Part shown: one piece after another, positions 21,841 to 34,581 of the stretch
How the letters are laid out: each line of letters starts with the position of its first letter
Position numbering within the stretch: the stretch's first letter is position 1
NCBI GenBank assembly: GCA_024281055.1
Contig: JAMXLF010000096.1
Span: 1-34,581 of the forward strand
DNA: 34,581 nucleotides
Source: Geobacteraceae bacterium
GTDB lineage: Bacteria; Desulfobacterota; Desulfuromonadia; Geobacterales; Geobacteraceae
Direction of reading: 5' to 3'
Translations under genes and position numbers: made by a program
The notes under the pieces: generated by a model
The model's input: only the letters and a program-made list of their open reading frames with translations
Told to the model about the DNA's origin: nothing
The model's database searches: none

Positions 21841-23847
21841 TTATATCTGCGTAGCCGCCAGAAGGAGAATCAAAGTGATGAAGGTATAGAGCATATAGAG
21901 ATGCAGGTGCCCATTCTGCATCCGGCGTATAAGTGCGGTTTTGACATAGAGGCGTTGCAGCATCGGGATATAAACCAGATCCAGCATTGTCTCCGGGACA
22001 TGGCTGGCAAAATGCGCGGGCTTCGGAAACGGACCGCGGACCACGGGCACATGGCCGTGGGGGCGGAGAACGCCGCGAAAGAAATGGACCAGCATCTCGG
22101 CGAACGACGAGGCGGTGTACTGCATCCGCGGGGTGGGAGCGGTGTAGCCGCATCCCCAGGTTTCTGTCGCGCCGGTCGGGAGCTGGGCCAGACGGCGCTT
22201 GAGCATGAAAGAGGTAAGGACGATGATCAGGACAAGGAAAATGGCCGCGCCGGATATCCACCAGAGATGGCCGGTCGTGGCGAGCGGCTCGGAAGAGAGG
22301 CCAAGGGCCGGATGCCAGCCGATTGTGGCACGCTGCAGAAGGGGAGCCGCAAGCCAGGGGATGAGACCGATAACAAAACAGACCGTCGTCAGGATGGCCA
22401 TCCCCCCCAGCATGGTGCGGGGTGCCTCGTGGGCGCCGGCAGCAGATTCGCCGCGCGGGGTGCCAAGAAAGACGATGCCGACAACCTTGACGAAACAGGC
22501 GACCGCAAGGCCGCCGATGAGCGCCAGCGCCGGCGCCCCCATTGCCGGAAAGCCTGCGGCAACGCCTCCCTGGGTGGTCACGCCACGCAGAAAACCGAGA
22601 TAGATCAGGAGTTCGCTCACAAAGCCGTTCAGCGGGGGGAGTCCACAGATGGCGACCGCCCCCACCAGAAAGAATCCGGACGTCCAAGGCAGCCTCCGCA
22701 GCAATCCCCCCAGGACGTCGATTTCTCGGGTGCCGGTGGCATGAATGATGGAGCCGGCTCCCAGGAAGAGAAGCGCCTTGAAGGTGGCATGGTTGACCAC
22801 GTGCAGGAGCGCCCCTGCCATACCGAGAAGCATCATGGCACTGTTGCCGACGCTCTGTCCGATCAGCGCCACCCCCACCCCCATCAAAATGATGCCGATA
22901 TTCTCGATGCTGTGATAGGCCAGGAGGCGTTTCAAATCATGCTGGCCGATGGCGAAGGCCACTCCGATGATGCCGGAAACCGCCCCCAGCGATAGAATCA
23001 GCGCCCCCCACCAGAGCGGAACCTCGGCAAAGAATGAGAGAATTCGCAAGAGGCCATAGATCCCGGTCTTGAGAACCACCCCGGAAAGGAGGGCGGATAC
23101 GTGGCTCGGGGCATTGGCATGGGCCGAGGGAAGCCAGACGTGCAGGGGCATCATGCCCGCCTTGAGCCCGAAACCGAACAGGGCGGTCATGAAAATAGCC
23201 AGTGCGATCCCGGAATGGGGCGAGAGGGTTCCGACAGTGGGGAAGGCAAACGTCCCGGCCGTGCTCTTCAGAAGGGAAAAGAGGGCAAAAAGTGCCAGGG
23301 CGCTTATGTGTGAAACGATGAGGTAGAGGCTTCCCGCCTCCCGTACCTCCCGGGTGGTATCTTCGGTGATGAGACAGAAGTAGGCGGCAAAGGACATCAC
23401 CTCCCACCAGAAGAGGAAGAGGACGCCGTTTCGCGACATGACGACCATGCCCAGCGACGCGGTCAGAAGACCGAAGAAAAAGGATAGCCGGCGCACGGTT
23501 CCGGTATTCTGTTCCGCAGCCCAGTACCCTCGGGCGTAGATCGCACAGGCACCGGATATGAGAAAAATGATGAAGAGAAAAAGGGCAGCAAGAGGATCCA
23601 CAGCGATGTCCGCCTCGCCGAAGGGAAGCCCCCACGGCATTTCACGGATGGAGGATGTGTGTCCCAGAAGGGCGAACAGTGCCCCGCAGATACCGGTGAG
23701 GGAGGCGACGCACATGGAAAGTGTCGAGAGGGTCTGCCCGGCTGCCGCCGGCATTGACGGCATCAGGAGCGGCACGCCGGAAAGCCCGGACAGAAAGACG
23801 GCGACCAGCAGGAGAGAGACGGGCGTGATAATCTCTCCCGGCAGCAT
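21841..23847 (-). CDS. hyfB: HyfB/NuoL-type proton-conducting membrane subunit (Ehr-associated copy, minus strand)
   Basis: A 668-residue antiporter-like subunit of the hydrogenase-4 / complex I family; the symbol is family-level. Many hydrophobic segments run the length of the protein. The core has the ion-channel motifs WWEVMSFAAYFCLI (membrane glutamate), FGFGLKAGMMPLHVWLPSAHANAPSHVSALLSGVVLKTGIYGLLR and DLKRLLAYHSIENIG. The C-terminal part (WGCGYTAPTPRMQYTASSF; HLHLYMLYTFI) closely resembles that of the plus-strand EhrA, so the two are paralogues. Its ATG is three bases after the EIIA-like gene, which implies one transcript. What complex it joins is not shown by the sequence; an alternative pump subunit for Ehr is plausible. 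Confidence 0.88.
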   Translation of the reverse strand: MLPGEIITPVSLLLVAVFLSGLSGVPLLMPSMPAAAGQTLSTLSMCVASLTGICGALFALLGHTSSIREMPWGLPFGEADIAVDPLAALFLFIIFLISGACAIYARGYWAAEQNTGTVRRLSFFFGLLTASLGMVVMSRNGVLFLFWWEVMSFAAYFCLITEDTTREVREAGSLYLIVSHISALALFALFSLLKSTAGTFAFPTVGTLSPHSGIALAIFMTALFGFGLKAGMMPLHVWLPSAHANAPSHVSALLSGVVLKTGIYGLLRILSFFAEVPLWWGALILSLGAVSGIIGVAFAIGQHDLKRLLAYHSIENIGIILMGVGVALIGQSVGNSAMMLLGMAGALLHVVNHATFKALLFLGAGSIIHATGTREIDVLGGLLRRLPWTSGFFLVGAVAICGLPPLNGFVSELLIYLGFLRGVTTQGGVAAGFPAMGAPALALIGGLAVACFVKVVGIVFLGTPRGESAAGAHEAPRTMLGGMAILTTVCFVIGLIPWLAAPLLQRATIGWHPALGLSSEPLATTGHLWWISGAAIFLVLIIVLTSFMLKRRLAQLPTGATETWGCGYTAPTPRMQYTASSFAEMLVHFFRGVLRPHGHVPVVRGPFPKPAHFASHVPETMLDLVYIPMLQRLYVKTALIRRMQNGHLHLYMLYTFITLILLLAATQI

Positions 23848-23850
23848 CGT

Positions 23851-24525
23851 CTACCTCCCCAGTTCCGCTTCAACCCGGCGTGCGGCCTCCCGGATCAGGG
23901 CCGGATTGCAGGGGGTGGTCAGGACGGAGCGGAAGGAGTCGTTTCGCAGGGCGTAGGCAAGCTTGGACAGCAGATGGAGATGGATCTTCACCGTCGGGCT
24001 GATGAGCATGAAGACGATCTCCACCGGCTTTCCGTCCAGTGCGCCGAAATCGACCGGTTGCTTGAGGAAACTCAAGGTGATCGCGGGCGAGGGAAGATTG
24101 ACCAGGATCGGGTTACGGACGTGGGGAATGGCGATGCCGTCGCCGATCGCCGTGGTGCCGAGCGCCTCCCGCGCCAGGAGCACCTGCAGCAGGAATTCGG
24201 GATCAACCTGGGGCGGCAGACTCAGATTGGCAACCAGGTTCTGAAGCACCGACAGCTTGTCGTTCCCCGGAACGCCGCAGAAGATCCCCCCTGCCTCCAG
24301 CGCCTCGGCCAGCGTAGGGAAGTCGAGAGCCTTTTCGTCTATCACGAACAGCGAGGGGGGCACCTTGATTCCGTGCTCGGTGGCCCATTCCAGGAGATCA
24401 ACCCGGTTGATGTGGTAAACGCCATTCATCTCAACGGCGTCGAGCCCCTCCTTGCGAATCCAGCGCAGGACAGTTTTTTCGTCTATCTGCATCAGTTCTG
24501 CTACATCTGCGGCCTTTATCATCAT
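23851..24525 (-). CDS. DNA-binding PTS EIIA-like protein (HTH plus EIIA fructose/mannitol-type domain)
   Basis: About 224 residues. The N-terminal about 55 residues resemble an excisionase/MerR-type helix-turn-helix (IKAADVAELMQIDEKTVLRWIRKEGLDAVEMNGVYHINRVDLLEW). Residues 75-220 form a PTS EIIA type 2 domain, with the phosphoacceptor histidine H135 in the motif GDGIAIPHVRNP. No EIIB or EIIC transport domain or sugar gene is nearby, so a regulatory role seems likelier than sugar uptake. Starts at 24522, 24525 (used) or GTG 24534 are all possible; GGAG is 11 bases before 24525. It sits directly upstream of the HyfB-like gene and 32 bases after the toxin gene. Confidence 0.85.
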   Translation of the reverse strand: MMIKAADVAELMQIDEKTVLRWIRKEGLDAVEMNGVYHINRVDLLEWATEHGIKVPPSLFVIDEKALDFPTLAEALEAGGIFCGVPGNDKLSVLQNLVANLSLPPQVDPEFLLQVLLAREALGTTAIGDGIAIPHVRNPILVNLPSPAITLSFLKQPVDFGALDGKPVEIVFMLISPTVKIHLHLLSKLAYALRNDSFRSVLTTPCNPALIREAARRVEAELGR

Positions 24526-24557
24526 GGTCGACACGACTCCCTAAAAACTACACGTCC

Positions 24558-24896
24558 TTATAGCGCCAACTGAAAACGGAGCGCCCGGTCCACCTGTTTC
24601 ATCAGCCCCTTGCTCACGAAACCGAGCCGGTCACTTACCACCTTGTTCTTGTCGATGGTGAACAGGAGATGGGAACTGATCTTGGCATCCTGGGCCAAAC
24701 CGGTCTTCGTCCGCGGCAGAAGGGTCTCGAAATCGTAGATACGCTCCAGATTGGAAAATGAGAGCGGAATAACGGTCACCACCGGCGAAAATTCATTGCT
24801 GATGTTGTTGCTGACCACCAGGCAGGGGCACGCGTCGGTGGCCTCGCCCCGATCGCGCACCAACTCGACCTGATAGATCCCGCACCGTTTATACAT
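24558..24896 (-). CDS. PemK/MazF-family toxin (endoribonuclease)
   Basis: A 112-residue protein with the PemK/MazF fold signatures: N-terminal KRCGIYQVELV, the conserved RP-VVSNN-like stretch CPCLVVSNNISN, VVTVIPLS, and the C-terminal GLAQDAKISSHLLFTIDKNKV followed by GFVSKGLMKQVDRAL. Such toxins cut mRNA at short sites and block growth. Its ATG overlaps the antitoxin 3' end by eight bases, normal for these pairs. Catalytic residues cannot be assigned exactly by eye. It reads in the same direction as the EIIA-like gene 32 bases downstream. Confidence 0.85.
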   Translation of the reverse strand: MYKRCGIYQVELVRDRGEATDACPCLVVSNNISNEFSPVVTVIPLSFSNLERIYDFETLLPRTKTGLAQDAKISSHLLFTIDKNKVVSDRLGFVSKGLMKQVDRALRFQLAL

Positions 24897-25282: not shown

Positions 25283-27259
25283 GTGTCGTCATCCATTCTT
25301 AACCCCGCTTCGGCAATCATAGCCACCACTGCCCTCATAGCCTTCTCCGGCCTTGCAGGACTCCTCATCCGCCCCGCTACGTTTGGCCAGAAATTCGCCG
25401 CTGCAATCGGTATCCCCGCCTCGGCGGTCGGCTTCTGCTCTGCTGTCCTTATGCTCGTGCGGCAGCAGCATGCCGGCTATGTCATCGACTGGTCGCTTCC
25501 CTTCGGTGTATGCGAGATAGGGCTCGACCCGCTTTCCTCCTTTTTCCTGCTGCCGGTCTTTCTCGTCACTTTCTGCGGCACACTCTACGGCCTCGGCTAC
25601 TGGCCCGCCACCCACCACCGGACCACCGCACCGGGCATGACCTTTTTCTATGGACTCCTCCCTGCTGCCATGGCGATGGTGGTGATGGCCAGAAACGGAG
25701 CACTATTGCTCATCGCCTGGGAGATCATGGCTCTGTCCGCCTTTTTTCTGCTCATAATGGAGCATTCTGACCACGAAGTACGCAAGGCCGGCACCGTCTA
25801 TCTGCTGACCACCCATACCGGCACGGCGGCCCTGATCGTCCTCTTTTCCCTGCTGCACGCAACCACCGGATCATTTCTTTTCCCCGTCCAGGGCAGCCTC
25901 GTCGTCACCGGCCAGACCGCCACGCTCATCTTCCTCCTGGCGCTGTTCGGTTTCGGCGCCAAGGCGGGGATCATGCCGATGCACTTCTGGCTCCCGTCGG
26001 CGCACGCCAACGCGCCAAGCCACGCCTCGGCCATGATGTCAGGGGTGATGCTCAAAATGGGGATCTACGGAATCCTTCGCTTCCTCACTTTCTGCCCGCA
26101 CAAGCCGCTCTGGTGGGGAGGGCTTCTGATTGTTGCCGGAATACTGTCGGCACTGCTCGGCATCTGCTTTGCCGCCGTACAGACCGATATCAAGCGGCTG
26201 CTTGCTTACAGCAGCATCGAGAACATCGGCATCATCACCACCGGCATGGGTATGACCATGATCGGAGAAGCAACCGCCACCCCCTCGCTGATACTTCTGG
26301 GACTCTCGGGCGCCCTTCTCCACGTGCTGAACCATTCTCTCTTCAAGCCGCTCCTTTTCTTCGGTGCCGGGGGGATCATTCACAACACCGGCACGCGGAT
26401 CGTCAGCCGGATGGGGGGCCTGGCCAGGGAGATGCGCACAAGCGCACTCTTTTTCTTTGTCGGCGCGGTTGCGATCTGCGGCCTCCCCCCCCTGAACGGT
26501 TTTGCCGGTGAGTTCCTGCTCTATATAGGCTTTTTCAGGGAGGCACACGCCCCGATCCCCGTGATGGTGTTGGGTGTGCCGGCGCTGGCTCTGGTCGGAG
26601 GGATGGCCACGATTGCCTTCGTCAAGCTCTACGGCACGGTCTACCTGGGCACCCCCCGTTCCCGAGAGGCCGCGCACCCCCACGAGCTTTCTCTCGGCAT
26701 GCTCATCCCGATGGGGCTTCTGGCGTTCCTCTGCATCGTAGGCGGCCTTGTCCCAACACTCTTTCTGGCCCTGGTCCAGCCGGTGATCGCCATGCTTGTC
26801 CCATCCGCCCTCTCCGGCGCCAAGCTTCCGGCGTCGATCAACCTGTTCCCCCTCTTCGGGGCAGGACTCATGGCAGCCGCGGGAATCGTCTGGCTTCTGA
26901 TCAAAAAGAATCTAAACGTTCGCAAGGTTGCAGCGGACAGCACCTGGGGGTGCGGGTATCGTGCACCCACGCCGCGGATGCAGTATACCGGCGCCGCATT
27001 CAGCGAATTCTGGGCCGGCCTGACCCGCGGCCTGTCCCGATGCCTTACGCAAAAACCGACACCCGAAGGTATCGCGCCGAAGGCCGGGCCATTTATCTAT
27101 ACGCCGGAAGAGACGATTCTGGAGCGGATCATTAATCCGCTCCTGGAAGTGGCCGGCATCGGCTGTGCCTTCGTGCGCCGTTTGCAGCACGGCCAGCTCC
27201 ACATCTATATGCTGTACATTTTCATCACCCTCACACTGCTCATCACATGGGTGCGCTAA
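25283..27259 (+). CDS. ehrA: Ehr complex antiporter-like membrane subunit (HyfB/NuoL-type)
   Basis: A 658-residue integral membrane protein and likely ion-translocating subunit of the Ehr complex. Motifs: IAWEIMALSAFFLLIMEHSDHEVRKAG (membrane glutamate), FGFGAKAGIMPMHFWLPSAHANAPSHASAMMSGVMLKMGIYGILR, DIKRLLAYSSIENIGIITTGMG, and LLHVLNHSLFKPLLFFGAGG, the usual proton-transfer lysines and histidines of this family. C-terminal extension WGCGYRAPTPRMQYTGAAFSEFW is typical of the HyfB branch. GTG start at 25283; AAGG is about ten bases upstream. First gene of the plus-strand operon; paralogue of the minus-strand 21841-23847 gene. Symbols ehrA-S are recalled from Geobacter naming, not searched. Confidence 0.88.
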   Translation: MSSSILNPASAIIATTALIAFSGLAGLLIRPATFGQKFAAAIGIPASAVGFCSAVLMLVRQQHAGYVIDWSLPFGVCEIGLDPLSSFFLLPVFLVTFCGTLYGLGYWPATHHRTTAPGMTFFYGLLPAAMAMVVMARNGALLLIAWEIMALSAFFLLIMEHSDHEVRKAGTVYLLTTHTGTAALIVLFSLLHATTGSFLFPVQGSLVVTGQTATLIFLLALFGFGAKAGIMPMHFWLPSAHANAPSHASAMMSGVMLKMGIYGILRFLTFCPHKPLWWGGLLIVAGILSALLGICFAAVQTDIKRLLAYSSIENIGIITTGMGMTMIGEATATPSLILLGLSGALLHVLNHSLFKPLLFFGAGGIIHNTGTRIVSRMGGLAREMRTSALFFFVGAVAICGLPPLNGFAGEFLLYIGFFREAHAPIPVMVLGVPALALVGGMATIAFVKLYGTVYLGTPRSREAAHPHELSLGMLIPMGLLAFLCIVGGLVPTLFLALVQPVIAMLVPSALSGAKLPASINLFPLFGAGLMAAAGIVWLLIKKNLNVRKVAADSTWGCGYRAPTPRMQYTGAAFSEFWAGLTRGLSRCLTQKPTPEGIAPKAGPFIYTPEETILERIINPLLEVAGIGCAFVRRLQHGQLHIYMLYIFITLTLLITWVR

Positions 27260-27392: not shown

Positions 27393-28301
27393 ATGACCGA
27401 CATTCTCATCCATCTGCTGCTCGTCTTTCTGATGCCGCCGCTGCTTCTCGGGATCATCGGCAAGACCAAGGCCTGGTTCGCCGGCAGGGTCGGGGCGCCG
27501 TTTCTGCAACCCTATTATGATATTGCCCGGCTGCTGCGCAAGGGAAGCGTCTTCAGCATCACCACCACCTGGGTCTTCCGGGCAGGGCCGGTCGTCACCC
27601 TGGTCTCGACGCTCTTTGCCTCACTCCTGATACCCTTTGGCCGCCACGGCGCCCCCATCTCTTTCGAGGGGGACCTGATCCTCTTCGCTTATCTCTTTGC
27701 CCTGGGACGCTTTTTCACGACAACCGCAGCACTGGATACCGGCTCCAGTTTCGAAGGGATGGGGGCAGCGCGGGAAGTAACCTTCTCCTGCCTGGCAGAG
27801 CCAGCGCTCTTTTTCGCCTTCATCACCCTGGCACGTTTGAGCGGCACCATGTCCCTCACCCCGATGATGAACCACCTCTCCAGTTCTGTCTGGCTGATGG
27901 CCGGCGCTGCCCTTCTGTTGATGATGGGCGGCCTGTTCGTTGTGCTCCTGGCCGAGAATTGCCGCATCCCATTCGACGATCCCACTACCCATCTGGAACT
28001 GACCATGATCCACGAAGTGATGGTGCTCGACCACAGCGGACCGCTCTTCGGGCTCATCCTCTACGGCGCCGCCATCAAACTCTTTGTTCTCGGCGCGCTC
28101 TTTGTCAACGTGGTCGCTCCGTTCAGCACCGGCTCGCCCCTTGCCGACTGGGGGCTCTTCATCCTCTGCATGACGCTCCTGGCCGTCGTGATCGGCATCG
28201 TGGAGTCGGTCATGGCACGGCTTCGCCTGGTGCGCATTCCGCAGCTTCTGGTGGCGGCCACCATCATGACCGCCTTTTCACTCGTCCTGGTTCTGAGGTG
28301 A
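27393..28301 (+). CDS. ehrB: Ehr complex NuoH/HycD-type membrane subunit
   Basis: A 302-residue NuoH/HyfC/HycD-type membrane anchor with about eight hydrophobic segments, which in complex I and group 4 hydrogenases docks the hydrophilic arm and holds the entry to the proton path. The key loop is LLAENCRIPFDDPTTHLELTM-IHEVMVLDHSGP, closer to the hydrogenase (HyfC) version than to the NuoH quinone-site version. The N-terminal GKTKAWFAGRVGAPFLQPYYDIARLLRKGS block is typical. Starts at 27393, directly after the repeat; six bases before ehrC. Confidence 0.92.
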   Translation: MTDILIHLLLVFLMPPLLLGIIGKTKAWFAGRVGAPFLQPYYDIARLLRKGSVFSITTTWVFRAGPVVTLVSTLFASLLIPFGRHGAPISFEGDLILFAYLFALGRFFTTTAALDTGSSFEGMGAAREVTFSCLAEPALFFAFITLARLSGTMSLTPMMNHLSSSVWLMAGAALLLMMGGLFVVLLAENCRIPFDDPTTHLELTMIHEVMVLDHSGPLFGLILYGAAIKLFVLGALFVNVVAPFSTGSPLADWGLFILCMTLLAVVIGIVESVMARLRLVRIPQLLVAATIMTAFSLVLVLR

Positions 28302-28307
28302 CACACT

Positions 28308-28949
28308 ATGGGCTCACTGGCTGACCAATTCCTCGTCCTCTCCCTCCTGATCAATTTTATCGTACTCGGCACCAGCCGCCTCGGCTTCGCGGTCAGGGCG
28401 GTCGCCATTCAGGGTGTCGTGCTCGGTTTCCTGCCGGCGCTGATTCACCCCTTCTCCTGGCACATCGTCCTCATAGTCATCCTGATGATCTGTGCCAAGG
28501 GGATCATCATTCCCTGGCTGATCACCAATGCCATCCGCAAGGCGGAGATCAAGCGGGAAGTCGAACCGTTCATCGGCTATATCCCGACATTGGTGCTGGG
28601 GGCGGTCTGCACGGTGCTCGCCTTCGTCTTCGCCAAAAAGCTGCCGATGGCCGCCGAGCACCAGGGTCTCCTCTTCGTGCCGGCATCCATCGCCACCCTG
28701 ATGACCGGGTTTCTCGTGCTGACCACCCGACGCAAGGCCATCTCCCAGGTCATCGGTTATCTCCTGATGGAGAACGGCATCTTCATCTTCGGCCTGCTCC
28801 TGGCCGAGGCGATGCCGGTGATGGTGGAAGCCGGGGCCGTCCTCGACCTCCTGGTCGCCATCTTCGTCATGGGTATCATCATGAATCACATCAGCCGCGA
28901 ATTTTCCTCGCTGGACACCTCGCGCCTCACCATGCTCAAGGAGGAGTAG
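28308..28949 (+). CDS. ehrC: Ehr complex HyfE-like membrane subunit
   Basis: A 213-residue hydrophobic protein of the HyfE family, related to the NuoK/MrpC type but longer. About six membrane segments; the block VIGYLLMENGIFIFGLLLAEAMPVMVEAGAVLDLLVAIFVMG carries the membrane glutamates expected of a NuoK-like helix pair. The ribosome site GAGGTGA overlaps the ehrB stop. Only three bases separate its TAG from the ehrD start, so translation is coupled. Role in ion passage is by family resemblance. Confidence 0.9.
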   Translation: MGSLADQFLVLSLLINFIVLGTSRLGFAVRAVAIQGVVLGFLPALIHPFSWHIVLIVILMICAKGIIIPWLITNAIRKAEIKREVEPFIGYIPTLVLGAVCTVLAFVFAKKLPMAAEHQGLLFVPASIATLMTGFLVLTTRRKAISQVIGYLLMENGIFIFGLLLAEAMPVMVEAGAVLDLLVAIFVMGIIMNHISREFSSLDTSRLTMLKEE

Positions 28950-28952
28950 CAG

Positions 28953-30395
28953 ATGCAGCTCTCCCTCATGCTGTTCATGCCGGCAGTCGGGGCCATCATC
29001 GCCTGGTTTACGCCGGACAACCGCCATCGGCCGTATATATTGCCCCTGTTCGCAGCAATCCACCTGGCAATCCTGGGGTGGGTGCTGATCGACACGCCGC
29101 CCGCGTCCCCAGGGGGCTGGTTCCTCCTCGACCCGATCGGCAAGCTGGTGATACTCAGCTTCAGCATCCTCTTTGCCGCCTGCGCCTGGTATGCCGTCAA
29201 TTACCTCCGCTACCGGAAGGAACGCTCGAACCGCATCCTCTGCTCGGCCCTCCTCCTTTGCCTGTCCGCCATGTGCCTGGTGAGCATCTCCCAGAACCTG
29301 GGGGTGCTCTGGGTCGCGCTGGAATCCACGTCAGTCCTGATGGCCCCCCTGATCTACTTCAATCGTAATGCCCGCTCCCTGGAGGCCACCTGGAAATACC
29401 TCCTCATCTGCTCGGTAGGGATCGCCGTTGCCCTCCTCGGGATTTTCTTTCTGGCCTATTCCACCATCGTCGCCCACCAGGACGCCACGCTCCTCCTGAG
29501 TTCCCTGATCGACGACGCACCGAGACTCAATCCGGGATGGCGCCACACCGCCTTCATCTTCCTCCTAGTCGGTTTCGGCTCAAAGATGGGGCTGGCCCCG
29601 ATGCATACCTGGAAGCCCGACGCCTACGGCGAGGCACCCGGTCTGGTCGGCGCGCTCTTGGCCGGGGGGCTCGTCAACTGCGCCTTTCTCTCCCTCATGA
29701 GGGTGTACCAGATCGCCGCGGCGACCCAGGAGGCCGCTTCCTTCCAGAGCGCCCTCATCGCCATGGGCCTCATCTCCATGGCCTTTGCCGCCGTGTTCAT
29801 GGCCAGGCAAAGCGACTTCAAGCGGATGCTCGCCTACTCCAGCGTCGAACATGTCGGCATCCTCACCCTGGCCCTCGGCCTCGGTAAGGGAGCGCTGTTC
29901 GGGGCGCTCTTCCACATGGTCAACAATTGCCTCACCAAAGGGGTGCTCTTTCTCTCCTCCGGCAACATCCACCGCGCCTTCGGCAGCAAGAACACCGCGG
30001 TGGTGCGTGGCGCGATCCGCTGGGTTCCCTGGTCGGGCGCGCTCTTTCTGACCGGCTTCCTCGCCATTACCGGCTCCCCGCCGTTCGCCCCCTTTGTCAG
30101 CGAATTCACCATCGTCAGCAACGCCTTCACCATGGGTAACTACTGGGCCGGCAGTCTCTTCCTGGTCTTTCTGGCCGTCATATTCATCGGCATGGCGCTC
30201 ACCGTCCTGCCGGTCGTGCTGGGAGAGCCGCCCGCGGGCGAGACCGGAACCTCCGAGCCATACCGCGACAGCTTTGTCTCGGTCATGCCCCTCATGGTCC
30301 TGATGGCGATTATGCTGGTTCTGGGCATCTGGGTACCATCGCCCCTGCAGACTCTCCTCACCGAGGCAGCCGGACTTCTGGGAGGTGGCCGATGA
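28953..30395 (+). CDS. ehrD: Ehr complex antiporter-like membrane subunit (HyfF/NuoN-type)
   Basis: A 480-residue second antiporter-like subunit with about 14 membrane segments. Motifs: WVALESTSVLMAPLIYFNRN (membrane glutamate), LVGFGSKMGLAPMHTWKPDAYGEAPGLVGALLAGGLVNCAFLSLMR, DFKRMLAYSSVEHVGILTLALG, and LFHMVNNCLTKGVLFLSSGNI. The HTWKPDA version of the helix-8 motif separates HyfF from the HyfB type (HxWLPxAH). Its stop overlaps the ehrL ATG (ATGA). With EhrA it gives the complex two putative ion channels. Confidence 0.92.
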   Translation: MQLSLMLFMPAVGAIIAWFTPDNRHRPYILPLFAAIHLAILGWVLIDTPPASPGGWFLLDPIGKLVILSFSILFAACAWYAVNYLRYRKERSNRILCSALLLCLSAMCLVSISQNLGVLWVALESTSVLMAPLIYFNRNARSLEATWKYLLICSVGIAVALLGIFFLAYSTIVAHQDATLLLSSLIDDAPRLNPGWRHTAFIFLLVGFGSKMGLAPMHTWKPDAYGEAPGLVGALLAGGLVNCAFLSLMRVYQIAAATQEAASFQSALIAMGLISMAFAAVFMARQSDFKRMLAYSSVEHVGILTLALGLGKGALFGALFHMVNNCLTKGVLFLSSGNIHRAFGSKNTAVVRGAIRWVPWSGALFLTGFLAITGSPPFAPFVSEFTIVSNAFTMGNYWAGSLFLVFLAVIFIGMALTVLPVVLGEPPAGETGTSEPYRDSFVSVMPLMVLMAIMLVLGIWVPSPLQTLLTEAAGLLGGGR

Positions 30396-31888
30396 AAACC
30401 CTGCACAACGGCATGGGAGTGGCACTCGATCAGATCCCGGACATGAATGATGCCACCTTCCTACAGACAATACTGGACCTGACCGACCACGGCTGGCGGG
30501 TATCCTCCTACTTCGGCGCTATGACCGACGGCGGGCTTCGGCTCTATGCCCTTCTATCCTCCAAGGCCGAGGGCATCCTAACGGTGCTGACCACCCGGGT
30601 CGGCGATCCCCATTTTCCCTCGCTCGCCAACCTCTGCCCCCAGGTTCACCTGTTCGAGCGGGAGATCGCGGAGCAGTTCGGCGTCGCCTTCGACGATCAC
30701 CCCTGGATGAAGCCGGTCCGCTTCCAGAACGAGCTGCCCAGCTGTTTCCCGCCACTGCGGGAGCGGGGAACGGTCGGGGTGATGGACTATTTCCGGATTG
30801 AGGGCGAAGAGGTCCACGAGGTGGCGGTCGGCCCGGTCCACGCCGGGATCATCGAACCGGGGCACTTCCGGTTCCAGTGCTACGGCGAACAGGTCTTCCA
30901 CCTGGAGATATCGCTCGGCTTCCAGCACCGCGGGATCGAGGCGGCGTTGCTGGGAGGGCCGCACAAAAACACCTTCGTGCGGATGGAAACGACAGCGGGC
31001 GACACCACCATCGGCCATGGCCAGGCCTACGCCATGGCCATCGAGGCGCTGACCGGCACGCGGGCCTCCGCGCGGGCCGAGGTAATCCGCGGGATCGCGC
31101 TGGAGCTCGAGCGCCTTGCAAACCACACCGGCGACCTGGGCGCCATCGCCGGCGATGTGGGCTATCTCCCCACCGCCTCGTTCTGTGGGCGGATCCGAGG
31201 CGATTTTCTCAATATGAGCGCCCTTCTCTGCGGCAGCCGTTTCGGTCGCGGTCTCATCACTCCCGGCGGGATCAGGTTCGACCTGAATGCCACCCTCATC
31301 GGGGCACTGCGGCAACGACTCGCGGCCGCCCGGGAAGATCTGTCCAACGCCGTGGAGCTGTTGTGGAACACCCCCTCCGTCATGGGACGCCTGGAGAACA
31401 CCGGGGCACTCTCCGAAAAGGACGCCCGCTCAATCGGGCTGGTCGGTCCGGCGGCCCGGGCCTGCGGCATCAACTACGACGTCCGTCGCGACCTCCCTTT
31501 CGGCATCTACCGCCTCGCCCAGATACCGGTCGTAACTGCGGGCACCGGCGATGTCCACGCCCGCACCATGGTCCGCTGGCTGGAAGCGGAAAAGTCCATG
31601 GATTTCATCGAAGAACAGATAGGACAGCTCCCCGGGGGCGCGATATGCACGGCAGGGGGAGAACTGGCGCCGAACCATCTGGCTGTCGCCCTGACCGAAG
31701 GATGGCGGGGCGAAATTTGTCACGTCGCCATCACCGACGGGACGGGGCGCTTTGCCCGTTACAAGATCACCGACCCCTCGTTCCACAACTGGACCGGGCT
31801 CGCTTTTGCCCTGCGGGGGCAGCAGATTTCGGATTTTCCGCTCTGCAACAAGAGCTTCAACCTCTCTTACTGCGGCTTTGATTTGTAG
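30392..31888 (+). CDS. ehrL: Ehr complex large subunit, NuoCD/HyfG-like without [NiFe] cysteines
   Basis: A 498-residue fusion: a NuoC-like 30-kDa domain (about 1-130, HLFEREIAEQFGVAFDDHPWMKPVRF) joined to a NuoD / hydrogenase large-subunit domain (about 145-498). Active hydrogenases have ExxCGxC...H and DPCxxC motifs. Here the first is E199-T-T-A202-G-D-T205-T-I-G-H209 and the second D461-P-S463-F-H-N466, so all four nickel ligands are gone, replaced by Ala, Thr, Ser and Asn. The flanking residues are kept, so this is not decay. The second motif (PSFHNW...RGQQISDF) is like NuoD. The C-terminus SFNLSYCGFDL is uncleaved. Its substrate is unknown. Confidence 0.93.
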   Translation: MKTLHNGMGVALDQIPDMNDATFLQTILDLTDHGWRVSSYFGAMTDGGLRLYALLSSKAEGILTVLTTRVGDPHFPSLANLCPQVHLFEREIAEQFGVAFDDHPWMKPVRFQNELPSCFPPLRERGTVGVMDYFRIEGEEVHEVAVGPVHAGIIEPGHFRFQCYGEQVFHLEISLGFQHRGIEAALLGGPHKNTFVRMETTAGDTTIGHGQAYAMAIEALTGTRASARAEVIRGIALELERLANHTGDLGAIAGDVGYLPTASFCGRIRGDFLNMSALLCGSRFGRGLITPGGIRFDLNATLIGALRQRLAAAREDLSNAVELLWNTPSVMGRLENTGALSEKDARSIGLVGPAARACGINYDVRRDLPFGIYRLAQIPVVTAGTGDVHARTMVRWLEAEKSMDFIEEQIGQLPGGAICTAGGELAPNHLAVALTEGWRGEICHVAITDGTGRFARYKITDPSFHNWTGLAFALRGQQISDFPLCNKSFNLSYCGFDL

Positions 31889-31982: not shown

Positions 31983-32795
31983 ATGTTTCGCGCCATAGCA
32001 GCCAGACTCAAACAGGGACATCGGACCACGCGGTATCCGGCGGAGCCGGTCCCGATGCCGGATCGTTTTCGCGGCTACCCCCGGCTCGATGCCTCAGCAT
32101 GTCCCGACGGCTGCCGGGTATGCGCCGATGTCTGCCCGGTGGGTGCCATAACACCCGGGACTCGGGACTCGGACCCAAACAACGGGCCTAAAGGACTAGG
32201 GACTAGGGAAAACCTTTCCATCGACCTGGGAAAATGCCTCTTCTGCCCCGACTGCAGCGAGGCCTGTCCCCGTGGGGCGATCACCTACACCAACGATCCC
32301 GCTCTCGCGGCGAACCGGCGCGAGGACCTCATCGTCAGACCGGGCGATGAACGCCGCCTTGCCCAGGCCCTGGAGCAGAAAATGCTGTCCCTTTTCGGCC
32401 GCTCCCTCAAATTCCGGGAGGTAAGCGCCGCCGGCTGCAACGCCTGCGAGGCGGACACCAACGTCCTTTCCACCATCGGCTGGGACCTGGGGCGGTTCGG
32501 TATCCAGTTCGTCGCCAGTCCGCGTCACGCCGACGGCCTCTGGGTCACCGGGCCGGTATCGGAAAACATGAAAGACGCCCTCCTCGCAACCTATGAGGCC
32601 ATTCCGGCACCGAAGATCGTCGTCGCCTGCGGTGCATGTGCCATCAACGGCGGCCCGTTCATCGATTCGCCGGAGGTCCACAACGGGGTTGACCGCCTGC
32701 TCCCGGTAGACCTCTTCATTCCCGGCTGCCCCCCCCATCCTGTCACCATCCTCGACGGGCTCCTGCGGCTGCTGGGAAAGCTCGAAGGGGCCTGA
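31983..32795 (+). CDS. ehrS: Ehr complex small subunit: ferredoxin domain fused to NuoB-like domain
   Basis: A 270-residue electron-transfer subunit. Residues 35-105 are a 2[4Fe-4S] ferredoxin domain: cluster 1 C40, C44, C47, C51 (first gap is three residues, not the usual two) and cluster 2 C85, C88, C91, C95 (regular). Residues 140-270 are a NuoB / hydrogenase small-subunit domain with proximal cluster ligands C152 and C155 (AAGCNACEADTN), C219 (CGACAINGGPF) and C249 (IPGCPPHP). Between the two ferredoxin motifs is an insertion of about 22 residues encoded by a reiterated GGGACT word repeat. So the electron path is intact while the large subunit has no Ni-Fe site. Last gene of the operon; no clear terminator follows. 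Confidence 0.93.
   Translation: MFRAIAARLKQGHRTTRYPAEPVPMPDRFRGYPRLDASACPDGCRVCADVCPVGAITPGTRDSDPNNGPKGLGTRENLSIDLGKCLFCPDCSEACPRGAITYTNDPALAANRREDLIVRPGDERRLAQALEQKMLSLFGRSLKFREVSAAGCNACEADTNVLSTIGWDLGRFGIQFVASPRHADGLWVTGPVSENMKDALLATYEAIPAPKIVVACGACAINGGPFIDSPEVHNGVDRLLPVDLFIPGCPPHPVTILDGLLRLLGKLEGA
32155..32208 (+). repeat. GGGACT word repeat inside ehrS, in frame
   Basis: Words GGGACTC, GGGACTC, GGAC at the left (32157-32174) and GGACTA, GGGACTA, GGG at the right (32193-32208). It encodes the linker PGTRDSDPNNGPKGLGTREN without a stop or frame change. Unlike the other word repeats here, both halves run in the same direction. Confidence 0.75.
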
Positions 32796-32899: not shown

Positions 32900-33018
32900 G
32901 AAGCTGTCCACCCTGAGAACCGGTTCATGCAGGAAAGAACATCAAAGGGTTATTTTGCACCGGTTCGGGTTTCAAGGCATGGAAATGATCAGTTGACTAT
33001 GGGCGAAAGGTTGTTGTG

Positions 33019-34581
33019 ATGACCCCTTTTGATCTTGCCATGGTATCCCTGTTCCTCATGCTGTCCCCGGTAGTTCTCGCCCCCTGCTGTGCCAAATCCC
33101 GCGGTCTCACCATCTATGTCTCCTTTACCATCACTGCCGTGGCAGCGCTGGCTGCCGTCTGTGCCGGATTCCTGGCCGTTCGCAACGGCACCGTGACCTC
33201 CGCGGTCGTGGCGATGGGGCTGCCGGACCTCCCGTTCCACCTGCGCCTCGATCCCCTAGCGGGCTTCTTCCTCTGCGTCATCGGCCTCCTCGCCTTCTTC
33301 GTTTCCATTTACTCCATCGGGTATGTCCGGGGCTTTCCGGCCAACCGGTCGGTGGTCAGGTTCGTCGTCTTCTACGCGCTCTTCATCGCCGGCATGCTCC
33401 TCGTCGTCCTGGCGGACGACGCCTTCTTCTTCCTGATCGCCTGGGAACTCATGGCCGCCGCCTCGTACTTTCTCGTCATGTACGAGGACGAAAAGGCGGA
33501 AAACCGGCGTTCGGCCTTCCTTTACCTGGTCATCGCCCATGTGGGGGCCATCGCCATCCTCCTCTCCTTCGGGGTAATGGCGGGACTCGCCAACGGTTTC
33601 GAAAGCTTCCAGGGGTACACCTTTGCCTCCATGCGTGCCACCACCTATCCGCTCGGCTGGGCAACCGCGGCTTTCTTCCTCTCCTTTTTCGGCTTCGCCG
33701 CCAAGGCCGGTGTGATCCCGCTCCACGTCTGGCTGCCGGAGGCGCACCCGGTCGCCCCGTCCAATGTTTCGGCGCTCATGAGCGGGGTAATGCTCAAGAC
33801 CTCCATCTACGGCATCGTCCGCGTGACCTTCGATTTCCTCAAGGTCTTCCCCTGGTGGTGGGGGGGGATCGTATTGGTCCTCGGCCTTGTCTCGGCCGTG
33901 CTGGGGGTACTCTATGCCCTCATGCAGAACGACCTGAAGCGGCTCCTCGCCTACAGTTCGGTGGAAAACATCGGTATCATCCTGATCGGCCTTGGACTGG
34001 CCATGATCTTCACCTCGTTCCATCTCCCGGCTCTCGCCGCCCTGGCCCTTATCGCAGCCCTCTACCACACGCTGAACCATGCCATGTTCAAGGGGCTCCT
34101 CTTCATGGGGGCGGGGGCCGTGCTCCATGCAACGCACGAGAGGAACATGGAGGGGATGGGGGGGCTGATCCATCGGATGCCGTGGACCTCGGTCTTCTTT
34201 CTCATCGGCTGCGTCTCCATTGCGGCTCTCCCCCCGTTCAACGGCTTTGCCTCCGAATGGCTCACCTTCCAAGCCTTCCTTCTGTCACCTGCGCTCCATC
34301 GGCCGATCCTGAGCCTCCTCATCCCACTCGGGGCTGCGCTCCTGGCCCTTACCGGGGCACTGGCAGCCGCCTGCTTCGTCAAGGCATACGGGGCGACGTT
34401 TCTCGGGCAGTGGCGCGGCCGTTACCCCGTCCAGCGAGTGAACGAGGTCAATTGGCACATGCGGCTCGGGATGATGCTGGCCGCGGCGACATGCTTTCTT
34501 CTCGGCATTTTTCCGACTGTCGTCATCAACTGGATGGATATACTGGCGCAGCGGCTGGTGGGGGGCGCGATCTCAACCAGT
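33019..34581 (+). CDS. hyfB: HyfB/NuoL-type proton-conducting membrane subunit, third copy (partial)
   Basis: The frame is open from ATG 33019 to the right edge (521 codons) with no stop. It translates to an antiporter-like protein starting MTPFDLAMVSLFLMLSPVVLAP, with the motifs IAWELMAAASYFLVMYEDEKAENRRSA (membrane glutamate), FFGFAAKAGVIPLHVWLPEAHPVAPSNVSALMSGVMLKTSIYG, DLKRLLAYSSVENIGIILIGLG and ALYHTLNHAMFKGLLFMGAG. The motif HVWLPEAHPVAPSN is nearer to canonical HyfB/HycC than the two other copies (SAHANAPSH), so it probably belongs to a different complex whose other genes lie beyond the window. GAAAGG precedes the ATG. The symbol is family-level. Confidence 0.88.
   Translation, partial: MTPFDLAMVSLFLMLSPVVLAPCCAKSRGLTIYVSFTITAVAALAAVCAGFLAVRNGTVTSAVVAMGLPDLPFHLRLDPLAGFFLCVIGLLAFFVSIYSIGYVRGFPANRSVVRFVVFYALFIAGMLLVVLADDAFFFLIAWELMAAASYFLVMYEDEKAENRRSAFLYLVIAHVGAIAILLSFGVMAGLANGFESFQGYTFASMRATTYPLGWATAAFFLSFFGFAAKAGVIPLHVWLPEAHPVAPSNVSALMSGVMLKTSIYGIVRVTFDFLKVFPWWWGGIVLVLGLVSAVLGVLYALMQNDLKRLLAYSSVENIGIILIGLGLAMIFTSFHLPALAALALIAALYHTLNHAMFKGLLFMGAGAVLHATHERNMEGMGGLIHRMPWTSVFFLIGCVSIAALPPFNGFASEWLTFQAFLLSPALHRPILSLLIPLGAALLALTGALAAACFVKAYGATFLGQWRGRYPVQRVNEVNWHMRLGMMLAAATCFLLGIFPTVVINWMDILAQRLVGGAISTS

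Follow-up and report, generated by a model that had tools for sequence, protein, structure and literature searches.

What does a hydrogenase-like complex do once its large subunit has lost the cysteines that hold nickel and iron? The question is raised by a locus of a Geobacteraceae bacterium (assembly GCA_024281055.1), of which we analysed a stretch of 34,581 nucleotides, hereafter the window (contig JAMXLF010000096.1, positions 1–34,581). Its gene ehrL (30392–31888, + strand) encodes EhrL, a subunit of 498 amino acids of the HycE/NuoCD type with an N-terminal 30-kDa-type domain, assigned from Pfam and from PDB sequence and fold matches. Judging by alignment, EhrL is a group 4 hydrogenase-like large subunit without any of the four Ni-Fe cysteines. 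It fits the published Ehr class: the large subunit is homologous to group 4, the Ni-Fe ligands are absent and antiporter-like membrane subunits are encoded in the same operon. The ligand loss is in itself already known; Coppi 2005 and Marreiros 2013 are reportedly earlier sources on it.

That Ehr (Ech-hydrogenase-related) complexes lack Ni-Fe ligands is described in PMC6349859, PMC10284858, PMC10432482 and PMC7304191, and the literature reports Ehr from Geobacter, Margulisbacteria and relatives, comammox Nitrospira, ammonia-oxidising archaea, Methanomassiliicoccales and the Candidate Phyla Radiation. The subunits EhrA-1, C, L and S of G. sulfurreducens Ehr (GSU0739-0745), as named in PMC7894505, have counterparts in our locus when compared by description rather than by sequence; the large subunit there lacks Ni-Fe ligands as does EhrL, whose relatives include named Geobacter and Geomonas records. 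New here are a corrected distal site, evidence of selection, a linked HTH-EIIA gene and a second complex; in addition, quinone and sulfane sulfur are disfavoured as general acceptors.

The vacated Ni-Fe sites of EhrL

The ehrL frame is open, its start shares ATGA with the stop of the gene just 5′, and the neighbouring subunit genes are present; reading frame and operon are thus intact, as the initial annotation of this DNA had it. EhrL matches the Pfam families Complex1_49kDa (1.6e-40) and Complex1_30kDa (9.6e-10), while none of the NCBIfam models was matched above its own cut-off. Its top PDB sequence match by phmmer is HycE of E. coli formate hydrogenlyase (7z0s_E, E 7.5e-47). The AlphaFold2 model (mean predicted local distance difference test, pLDDT, 88.5; predicted template modelling score 0.91) also finds HycE first among known folds (Foldseek TMq 0.88), followed by complex I subunits, and superposes on HycE with a Z of 43.5 and a root-mean-square deviation of 2.5 over 484 residues (VIA-align).

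A MAFFT alignment set EhrL beside 80 relatives and the HycE, HyfG and NuoCD of E. coli; phmmer against the PDB served as a second alignment. The relatives are the best 80 of 179, at 53–68% identity (L055 is partial); together with the window they give 81 rows, called Ehr-I. Their record titles name Geobacter and kin, Acidobacteria, Planctomycetota, Verrucomicrobia, Omnitrophota, a Spirochaetaceae genome and others. For a tree, 16 of the 81 rows were combined with four rows of second copies, called Ehr-II. All 20 Ehr rows form one clade, separate from HycE/HyfG, Ech and Nuo (100/100). The window's genome also carries a true Ech-type hydrogenase and two NuoD-type genes, which serve as a within-genome control.

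At the proximal site, the CGIC of HycE falls on A202-G203-D204-T205 (30995–31006, +), in agreement with the A202 and T205 of the initial annotation. Across the 81 rows position 202 is Ala (72), Ser (5) or Cys (4), positions 203 and 204 are always Gly and Asp, and position 205 is Thr (74) or Ser (7). The flanking residues are conserved as had been claimed: E199 in 74 rows, G203 in 81 and H209 in 80.

The distal site has to be moved. It had been placed at S463 and N466, within D461-P-S463-F-H-N466 (31772–31789, +), a placement ruled out by both alignments: the true DPCxxC counterpart lies 29 residues further on, where the DPCYSC of HycE falls on N490-L-S492-Y-C494-G495 (31859–31876, +). The D461 stretch corresponds to A-A-T-Y-A-N in HycE and to T-P-S-F-A-H in E. 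coli NuoCD; since HycE has AATYAN there with its Ni-Fe ligands present, this stretch is uninformative about Ni-Fe. The proposed alignment with HycE, HyfG and NuoCD thus confirms that all four cysteines are replaced, the distal pair by S492 and G495. Nor does the distal site read like NuoD, as had been suggested, for NLSYCG aligns with DIVLGE and DFVMSD of two NuoD proteins. In place of the two-CxxC signature of group 4 [NiFe] hydrogenases, EhrL has AGDT and NLSYCG.

C494 sits between the two former ligand positions and is Cys in all 81 rows, whereas each of the four Ehr-II rows has Ser. We rejected the idea that C494 still helps to bind Ni-Fe: it could take over no more than one former ligand position, shifted by one residue, and Ehr-II has Ser. 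A redox-active disulfide of C485 and C494 was likewise set aside, C485 being present in only 79 of 81 rows and C494 lost in Ehr-II; the idea survives only within a sensor reading weighed below.

EhrL ends three residues past the distal site, none of the 81 rows extends beyond L498, and L498 aligns with the Arg of HycE after which the HycE tail begins. The C-terminal extension of HycE is cut off by a maturation protease; we take this Arg to be the place where HycI cleaves. We had considered the short end of EhrL as a trace of a lost maturation step and dropped the idea. Because the Ech of the same genome, with all four cysteines (RICGLC and DPCISC), also ends directly past its distal motif, the end of EhrL is not diagnostic.

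Ehr shares with formate hydrogenlyase-1 and -2 (Hyc/Hyf) the HycE fold with its N-terminal 30-kDa-type domain, the hydrogenase CxxC of the proximal cluster and subunits of HyfB, HyfC, HyfE, HyfF, HyfG and HyfI type. In contrast to Hyc/Hyf, EhrL has no Ni-Fe cysteines and no tail past the distal site, a ferredoxin domain is fused to the small subunit, and the operon holds no HycB- or formate dehydrogenase (FDH)-type gene. The Ehr-like identity proposed in the initial annotation holds, and Ehr is almost certainly not a hydrogenase. A suggestion in PMC7894505, that Ehr helps make H2 from formate, is argued against by the missing ligands.

The fixed replacement motif and selection on ehrL

The same replacement, G203-D204 and N486-K-S-F-x-L-S-Y-C-G495, is found in 81 of 81 rows; as all 80 relatives share it, the ligand loss is no accident of one genome. 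Fixed over all rows are E155, H158, G203, D204, R439, K487, S492, Y493, C494 and G495; H209 (80) and C485 (79) are nearly so. In three alignment windows around the site, 28 of 44 columns are invariant, versus 79 of 454 elsewhere (hypergeometric 2e-10). This enrichment is due to the 147–161 loop (13/15) and the C-terminus (13/18), the proximal stretch contributing 2 of 11.

The ratio of nonsynonymous to synonymous substitution rates (dN/dS) of ehrL ranges from 0.067 to 0.338 in 16 pairs that we selected, and is at most 0.152 in 14 of them. Of 58 genomes belonging to this family or order, with the window's genome among them, 46 have a close orthologue; in these 46, one EhrL is interrupted by an in-frame stop and another is partial. 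By these sequence comparisons EhrL is under strong purifying selection.

A non-functional relic, drifting under relaxed selection, is what PMC13194489, of 2026, states for Geobacter Ehr. Missense mutations in two ehr subunits, given there for long-term electrode cultures, would suit it, as would the 12 of 58 genomes in which we found no close EhrL orthologue and the further one with the in-frame stop. The low dN/dS (0.067–0.152 in 14 of 16 pairs) and the presence of orthologues in 46 of 58 genomes argue against that statement; the new motif is moreover fixed across phyla, and Ehr proteins are reported as detected in G. sulfurreducens. Evolutionarily the relic is already contradicted by our selection result, and we find it hardly conceivable. 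That the subunit was repurposed rather than lost, as first proposed, is upheld: Ehr is very probably functional.

Proposed electron path, probable ion pump and acceptor

A simple longest-open-reading-frame caller found EhrL in 69 of 82 sources; since it missed EhrL in some, neighbours were counted by tblastn. All 70 loci with more than 4 kb upstream have the genes B, C and D 5′ of L, and S lies 3′ of L in 75 of 80. Of the five loci without S, L011 and L016 stop just past L, and L032, L035 and L037 have no S within 9–10 kb downstream. In L010 and L022, inserts of 3.6 kb and 2.8 kb separate ehrL from ehrS.

According to Pfam and cysteine counts, EhrS (31983–32795, +) has a ferredoxin domain for two clusters and, fused to it, a NuoB/HycG-like domain whose proximal cluster is of the CxxC type. 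Its eight ferredoxin cysteines are retained in 70–76 of 76 rows and C152, C155, C219 and C249 of the proximal cluster in 75–76; the three predicted [4Fe-4S] clusters of the initial annotation hence keep all their 12 cysteines. The proximal CxxC has the hydrogenase spacing, aligning without gaps with HycG, whereas complex I has Cys-Cys. Ferredoxin is a fairly likely donor to Ehr.

Four membrane subunits precede EhrL. EhrA (25283–27259, +) is HyfB/NuoL-like and antiporter-like by domain and family matches and pump residues; EhrB (27393–28301, +) is a NuoH/HycD-like anchor (Pfam NADHdh 1e-33); EhrC (28308–28949, +) is HyfE-like (NCBIfam PRK11492 1.9e-23, below cut-off); and EhrD (28953–30395, +) is HyfF-like and antiporter-like (Pfam Proton_antipo_M 1.1e-44, pump residues), its NCBIfam match to hydrogenase 4 subunit F also being under cut-off. 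EhrA-type subunits and EhrD retain the TM5 Glu, TM7 Lys, NuoL K342-type Lys and TM12 Glu in nearly all rows, in counts where the A1 and Am rows are best matches of two related queries and possibly the same gene; in this alignment the TM7 Lys is missing from E. coli HycC. These are the residues that matter in the respective transmembrane helices (TM). In EhrB the equivalents of NuoH E157, D213 and E220 are kept (E136, D195 and E202), and NuoH E216 is replaced by Asn, Thr or Ala. The NuoK Glu36/72 equivalents say nothing about EhrC, as HyfE in the same alignment lacks both too. Of the 57 loci that extend 10 kb upstream, 55 have one or two HyfB-type genes 5′ of EhrL. The two antiporter-like subunits expected at first are indeed in the operon; the window in total holds four. 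One of the others (21841–23847, −) is HyfB/NuoL-like and divergent from the operon, and its best relatives adjoin Ehr elsewhere; the last is taken up with the second complex. Ehr is probably an ion pump.

Complex I NuoCD/NuoB resembles Ehr in its fold, the lack of Ni-Fe cysteines and the antiporter-like subunits; it differs in its quinone His and Tyr, its Cys-Cys proximal cluster and its place in the tree. Ehr might then be a ferredoxin:menaquinone oxidoreductase, with the vacated pocket as a quinone site, like complex I minus the NADH module. EhrB and EhrL are by homology subunits of a complex-I-like chamber, and a menaquinone-pathway marker occurs in 36 of 49 Ehr genomes. These profiles cover the genomes of 49 of the 80 loci, leaving aside L055 and, as Geobacter-like or related by title, L006–L031, L035, L037, L071 and L076. 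MqnA/D (PF02621, E <1e-20) was found in 26 (two weak matches near 1e-7 left uncounted) and MenD above cut-off in 12, two of them shared; in controls, 4 of 14 and 7 of 14 were above cut-off.

The quinone head group is bound in Nqo4 by His38 and Tyr87 (PMC7684303). In EhrL these columns hold I154 and G203 (81/81), so both ligands are gone; Nqo4-column comparisons and Ehr-II alignments comprised 56 of the 80 relatives, the window and four or three Ehr-II rows. Neither a strong MqnA/D match nor MenD above cut-off was found in 13 of the 49 genomes. The hydrogenase-type proximal cluster and the replacement of NuoH E218 by His (H200 in EhrB, 73 of 73 relatives) also speak against the menaquinone reaction. 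With the two quinone ligands of complex I missing and 13 genomes lacking the markers, quinone is, on sequence grounds, unlikely as general acceptor, a quinone cavity in the vacated pocket is disfavoured, and we consider the menaquinone oxidoreductase unlikely. For an acceptor that is polar and not a quinone, the chances are about even.

UbiA (PF01040) was discarded as a quinone test, being too general (48 of 49 Ehr genomes, 14 of 14 controls). HypD, a maturation factor of [NiFe] hydrogenases, was not found in 15 of the 49 genomes, which come without completeness figures, and was present in 4 of 14 controls; HypD and both quinone markers are jointly missing in six of the 49. Among the 13 marker-less genomes, PF03116 occurs in 12 and PF01512 in all 13, and Rnf-type complexes probably coexist with Ehr there. 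A role of Ehr as Rnf replacement was rejected on the same 12 PF03116 matches.

What we tentatively propose, at somewhat less than even confidence, is that Ehr pumps ions at the expense of ferredoxin and that its old Ni-Fe pocket has been remade into a polar site for the acceptor. Reduced ferredoxin would donate electrons to the ferredoxin-like domain of EhrS, from which they would run along its clusters to the proximal cluster beside the pocket. The predicted lining of the pocket probably comprises E155, D204, T205, H209, R439, K487, S492, Y493 and C494. A small polar acceptor would be reduced there with proton uptake, and the energy released would power the transport of H+ (or Na+) by EhrB and the antiporter-like subunits. 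Since Ehr occurs in genomes where menaquinone genes were not detected, a common metabolite is a likelier acceptor than a quinone. The fixed motif, together with the evidence against quinone as general acceptor, narrows the search for the Ehr reaction.

Several observations count against this proposal. The pocket loops 148–156 and 494–498 are parts of the EhrL model with pLDDT below 50; C494 is not retained in Ehr-II; and E155, H158, H209 and R439 occur in HycE and HyfG too and may be structural. A menaquinone marker does occur in 36 of the 49 genomes, the quinone test consists of two marker families in genomes of the kind described, and second PF03116 matches in several of the 13 marker-less genomes could be NqrB, a quinone reductase. 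POR_N, the 2-oxoacid:ferredoxin oxidoreductase domain, is present in 48 of 49 Ehr genomes and 10 of 14 controls; a domain this widespread argues weakly for a ferredoxin donor. No recurrent acceptor gene was found beside Ehr in a neighbour scan for clusters of at least 4 loci among open reading frames of at least 100 amino acids, in which many loci are cut by contig ends.

The Pyrococcus MBS, a group 4-derived complex that like Ehr has neither a Ni-Fe site nor quinone ligands (PMC7684303), raises the prospect of a sulfane sulfur reductase acting at the proximal cluster. According to the same paper, MBS lacks three residues of the proximal-cluster loop, so that one cysteine is too far away and three Cys ligands are left, whereas EhrS has four cysteines in hydrogenase spacing. 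MBS also lacks an equivalent of MbhL E21, which EhrL keeps (E155, 81/81). With MBS-type chemistry disfavoured by the four cysteines of EhrS, we hold a sulfane sulfur reductase to be very improbable.

A formate-linked complex, in which FDH docks on EhrS as in a respiratory version of formate hydrogenlyase, would suit HycE as nearest structure. In PMC7894505, G. sulfurreducens Ehr proteins are commoner on formate than in hydrogen-containing conditions, and an FDH-Ehr is proposed for Margulisbacteria and Saganbacteria in PMC6349859. No FDH or HycB-like cluster of at least 4 loci appeared in the neighbour scan, with its contig-cut loci; the arrangement would supply a donor and still no acceptor; and the H2 formation suggested in PMC7894505 requires the ligands that EhrL lacks. 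We regard a formate-linked complex as improbable.

About equally small is the chance of a redox-gated antiporter, whose arm would sense ferredoxin or the thiol state of C485/C494 and gate ion transport without substrate turnover. Such a sensor would account for the HyfB-type genes upstream of EhrL, the near-fixed C485 and fixed C494, and a neighbour scan empty of acceptor genes, and the HTH-EIIA linkage described below would fit ion homeostasis. It sits badly with the Ser in place of C494 in Ehr-II and with the retention of the entire three-cluster chain, which a sensor would hardly need.

A linked HTH-EIIA gene and a second Ehr complex

Upstream of the operon lies a gene for a putative Ehr-linked regulator (23851–24534, −), with a helix-turn-helix (HTH) domain, HTH_17, and PTS_EIIA_2, as indicated by Pfam and locus counts. 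The HTH-EIIA gene recurs across phyla, being found 5′ of EhrL in 49 of the 80 loci and in 43 of the 57 with full 10 kb upstream; it is on the same strand as EhrL in 43 loci. Identity is at least 34% in 41 of the 49 loci and 27–31% in eight. Among 60 sequences, weaker second copies included, Pfam recognizes EIIA in 58 and HTH_17 in 57, and His138, which we take to be a phospho-acceptor-type position, is retained in 51 of 52 rows. Since the window's genome contains only two EIIA-like matches, a chance linkage with Ehr is unlikely. The protein probably couples ehr expression to the state of a phosphotransfer system. We found no mention of HTH-EIIA linked to Ehr or antiporters in the open-access literature searched; it gives a first regulatory handle on Ehr. 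Beyond the structural subunits and HTH-EIIA, no gene widely common across phyla was found near Ehr by the neighbour scan.

A wider claim is possible but doubtful as a whole: Ehr may add another type of active site to the Ni-Fe, quinone and sulfane sulfur sites of the complex I superfamily. Jointly, the old Ni-Fe pocket would have been turned, when the Ehr clade arose, into a fixed polar site (E155, G203-D204, R439 and NKSFN-x-SY-[C/S]-G); a universal soluble metabolite would be reduced by ferredoxin electrons with ion pumping, in bacteria that respire as well as in those that ferment; and control would lie with an HTH-EIIA phosphotransfer regulator dedicated to Ehr.

The window's genome encodes a further Ehr large subunit on another contig (C36, locus L089), at 37–39% identity and with the motifs GDTT and NKSFNQSYSG. 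In the accompanying small subunit only a NuoB-like domain was found; because the ferredoxin domain was not, the second Ehr may need another electron donor. The window itself ends in a truncated third HyfB/NuoL-like gene (33016–34581, +), most likely the start of this second operon. At the corresponding place, L006, L064, L070 and L073 have an A2-B-C-D array, in the last three with L and S, as a complete second Ehr operon directly 3′ of the first. Contig C36 starts inside an antiporter gene similar but not identical to that at 33016, and the second operon is most likely split between 33016–34581 (+) and L089:1-10622. Positions L089:1-300 are a repeat-like antiporter fragment with one peptide stretch occurring twice, perhaps an assembly artefact. 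The four Ehr-II rows are not monophyletic: the copy of the window's genome is closer to Ehr-I (98/89), on a branch flagged as long. Neither the HTH-EIIA neighbour nor a second Ehr operon is among the features described for G. sulfurreducens Ehr in the text available.

Beside the second Ehr (L089:13480-15427) lie genes for a small multihaem cytochrome c, a 4Fe-4S protein and an NrfD-like membrane protein; their relatives occur near Ehr in 9–10 Geobacter-like loci, and they are a possible quinol-side partner. The sole cluster of the neighbour scan to cross groups encodes an ATP-binding cassette transporter ATPase (4 loci, two outside the Geobacter-like group). A MazF/PemK-like toxin gene (24558–24896, −) lies between the HTH-EIIA gene and ehrA; several Geobacter-like loci have one at this place or close to it. 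The other genes scanned in the window (710–21481, −) are housekeeping: glycine cleavage, a sigma-70-type factor, dnaG, his genes, aroA, prmC, a release factor, thyX and rho.

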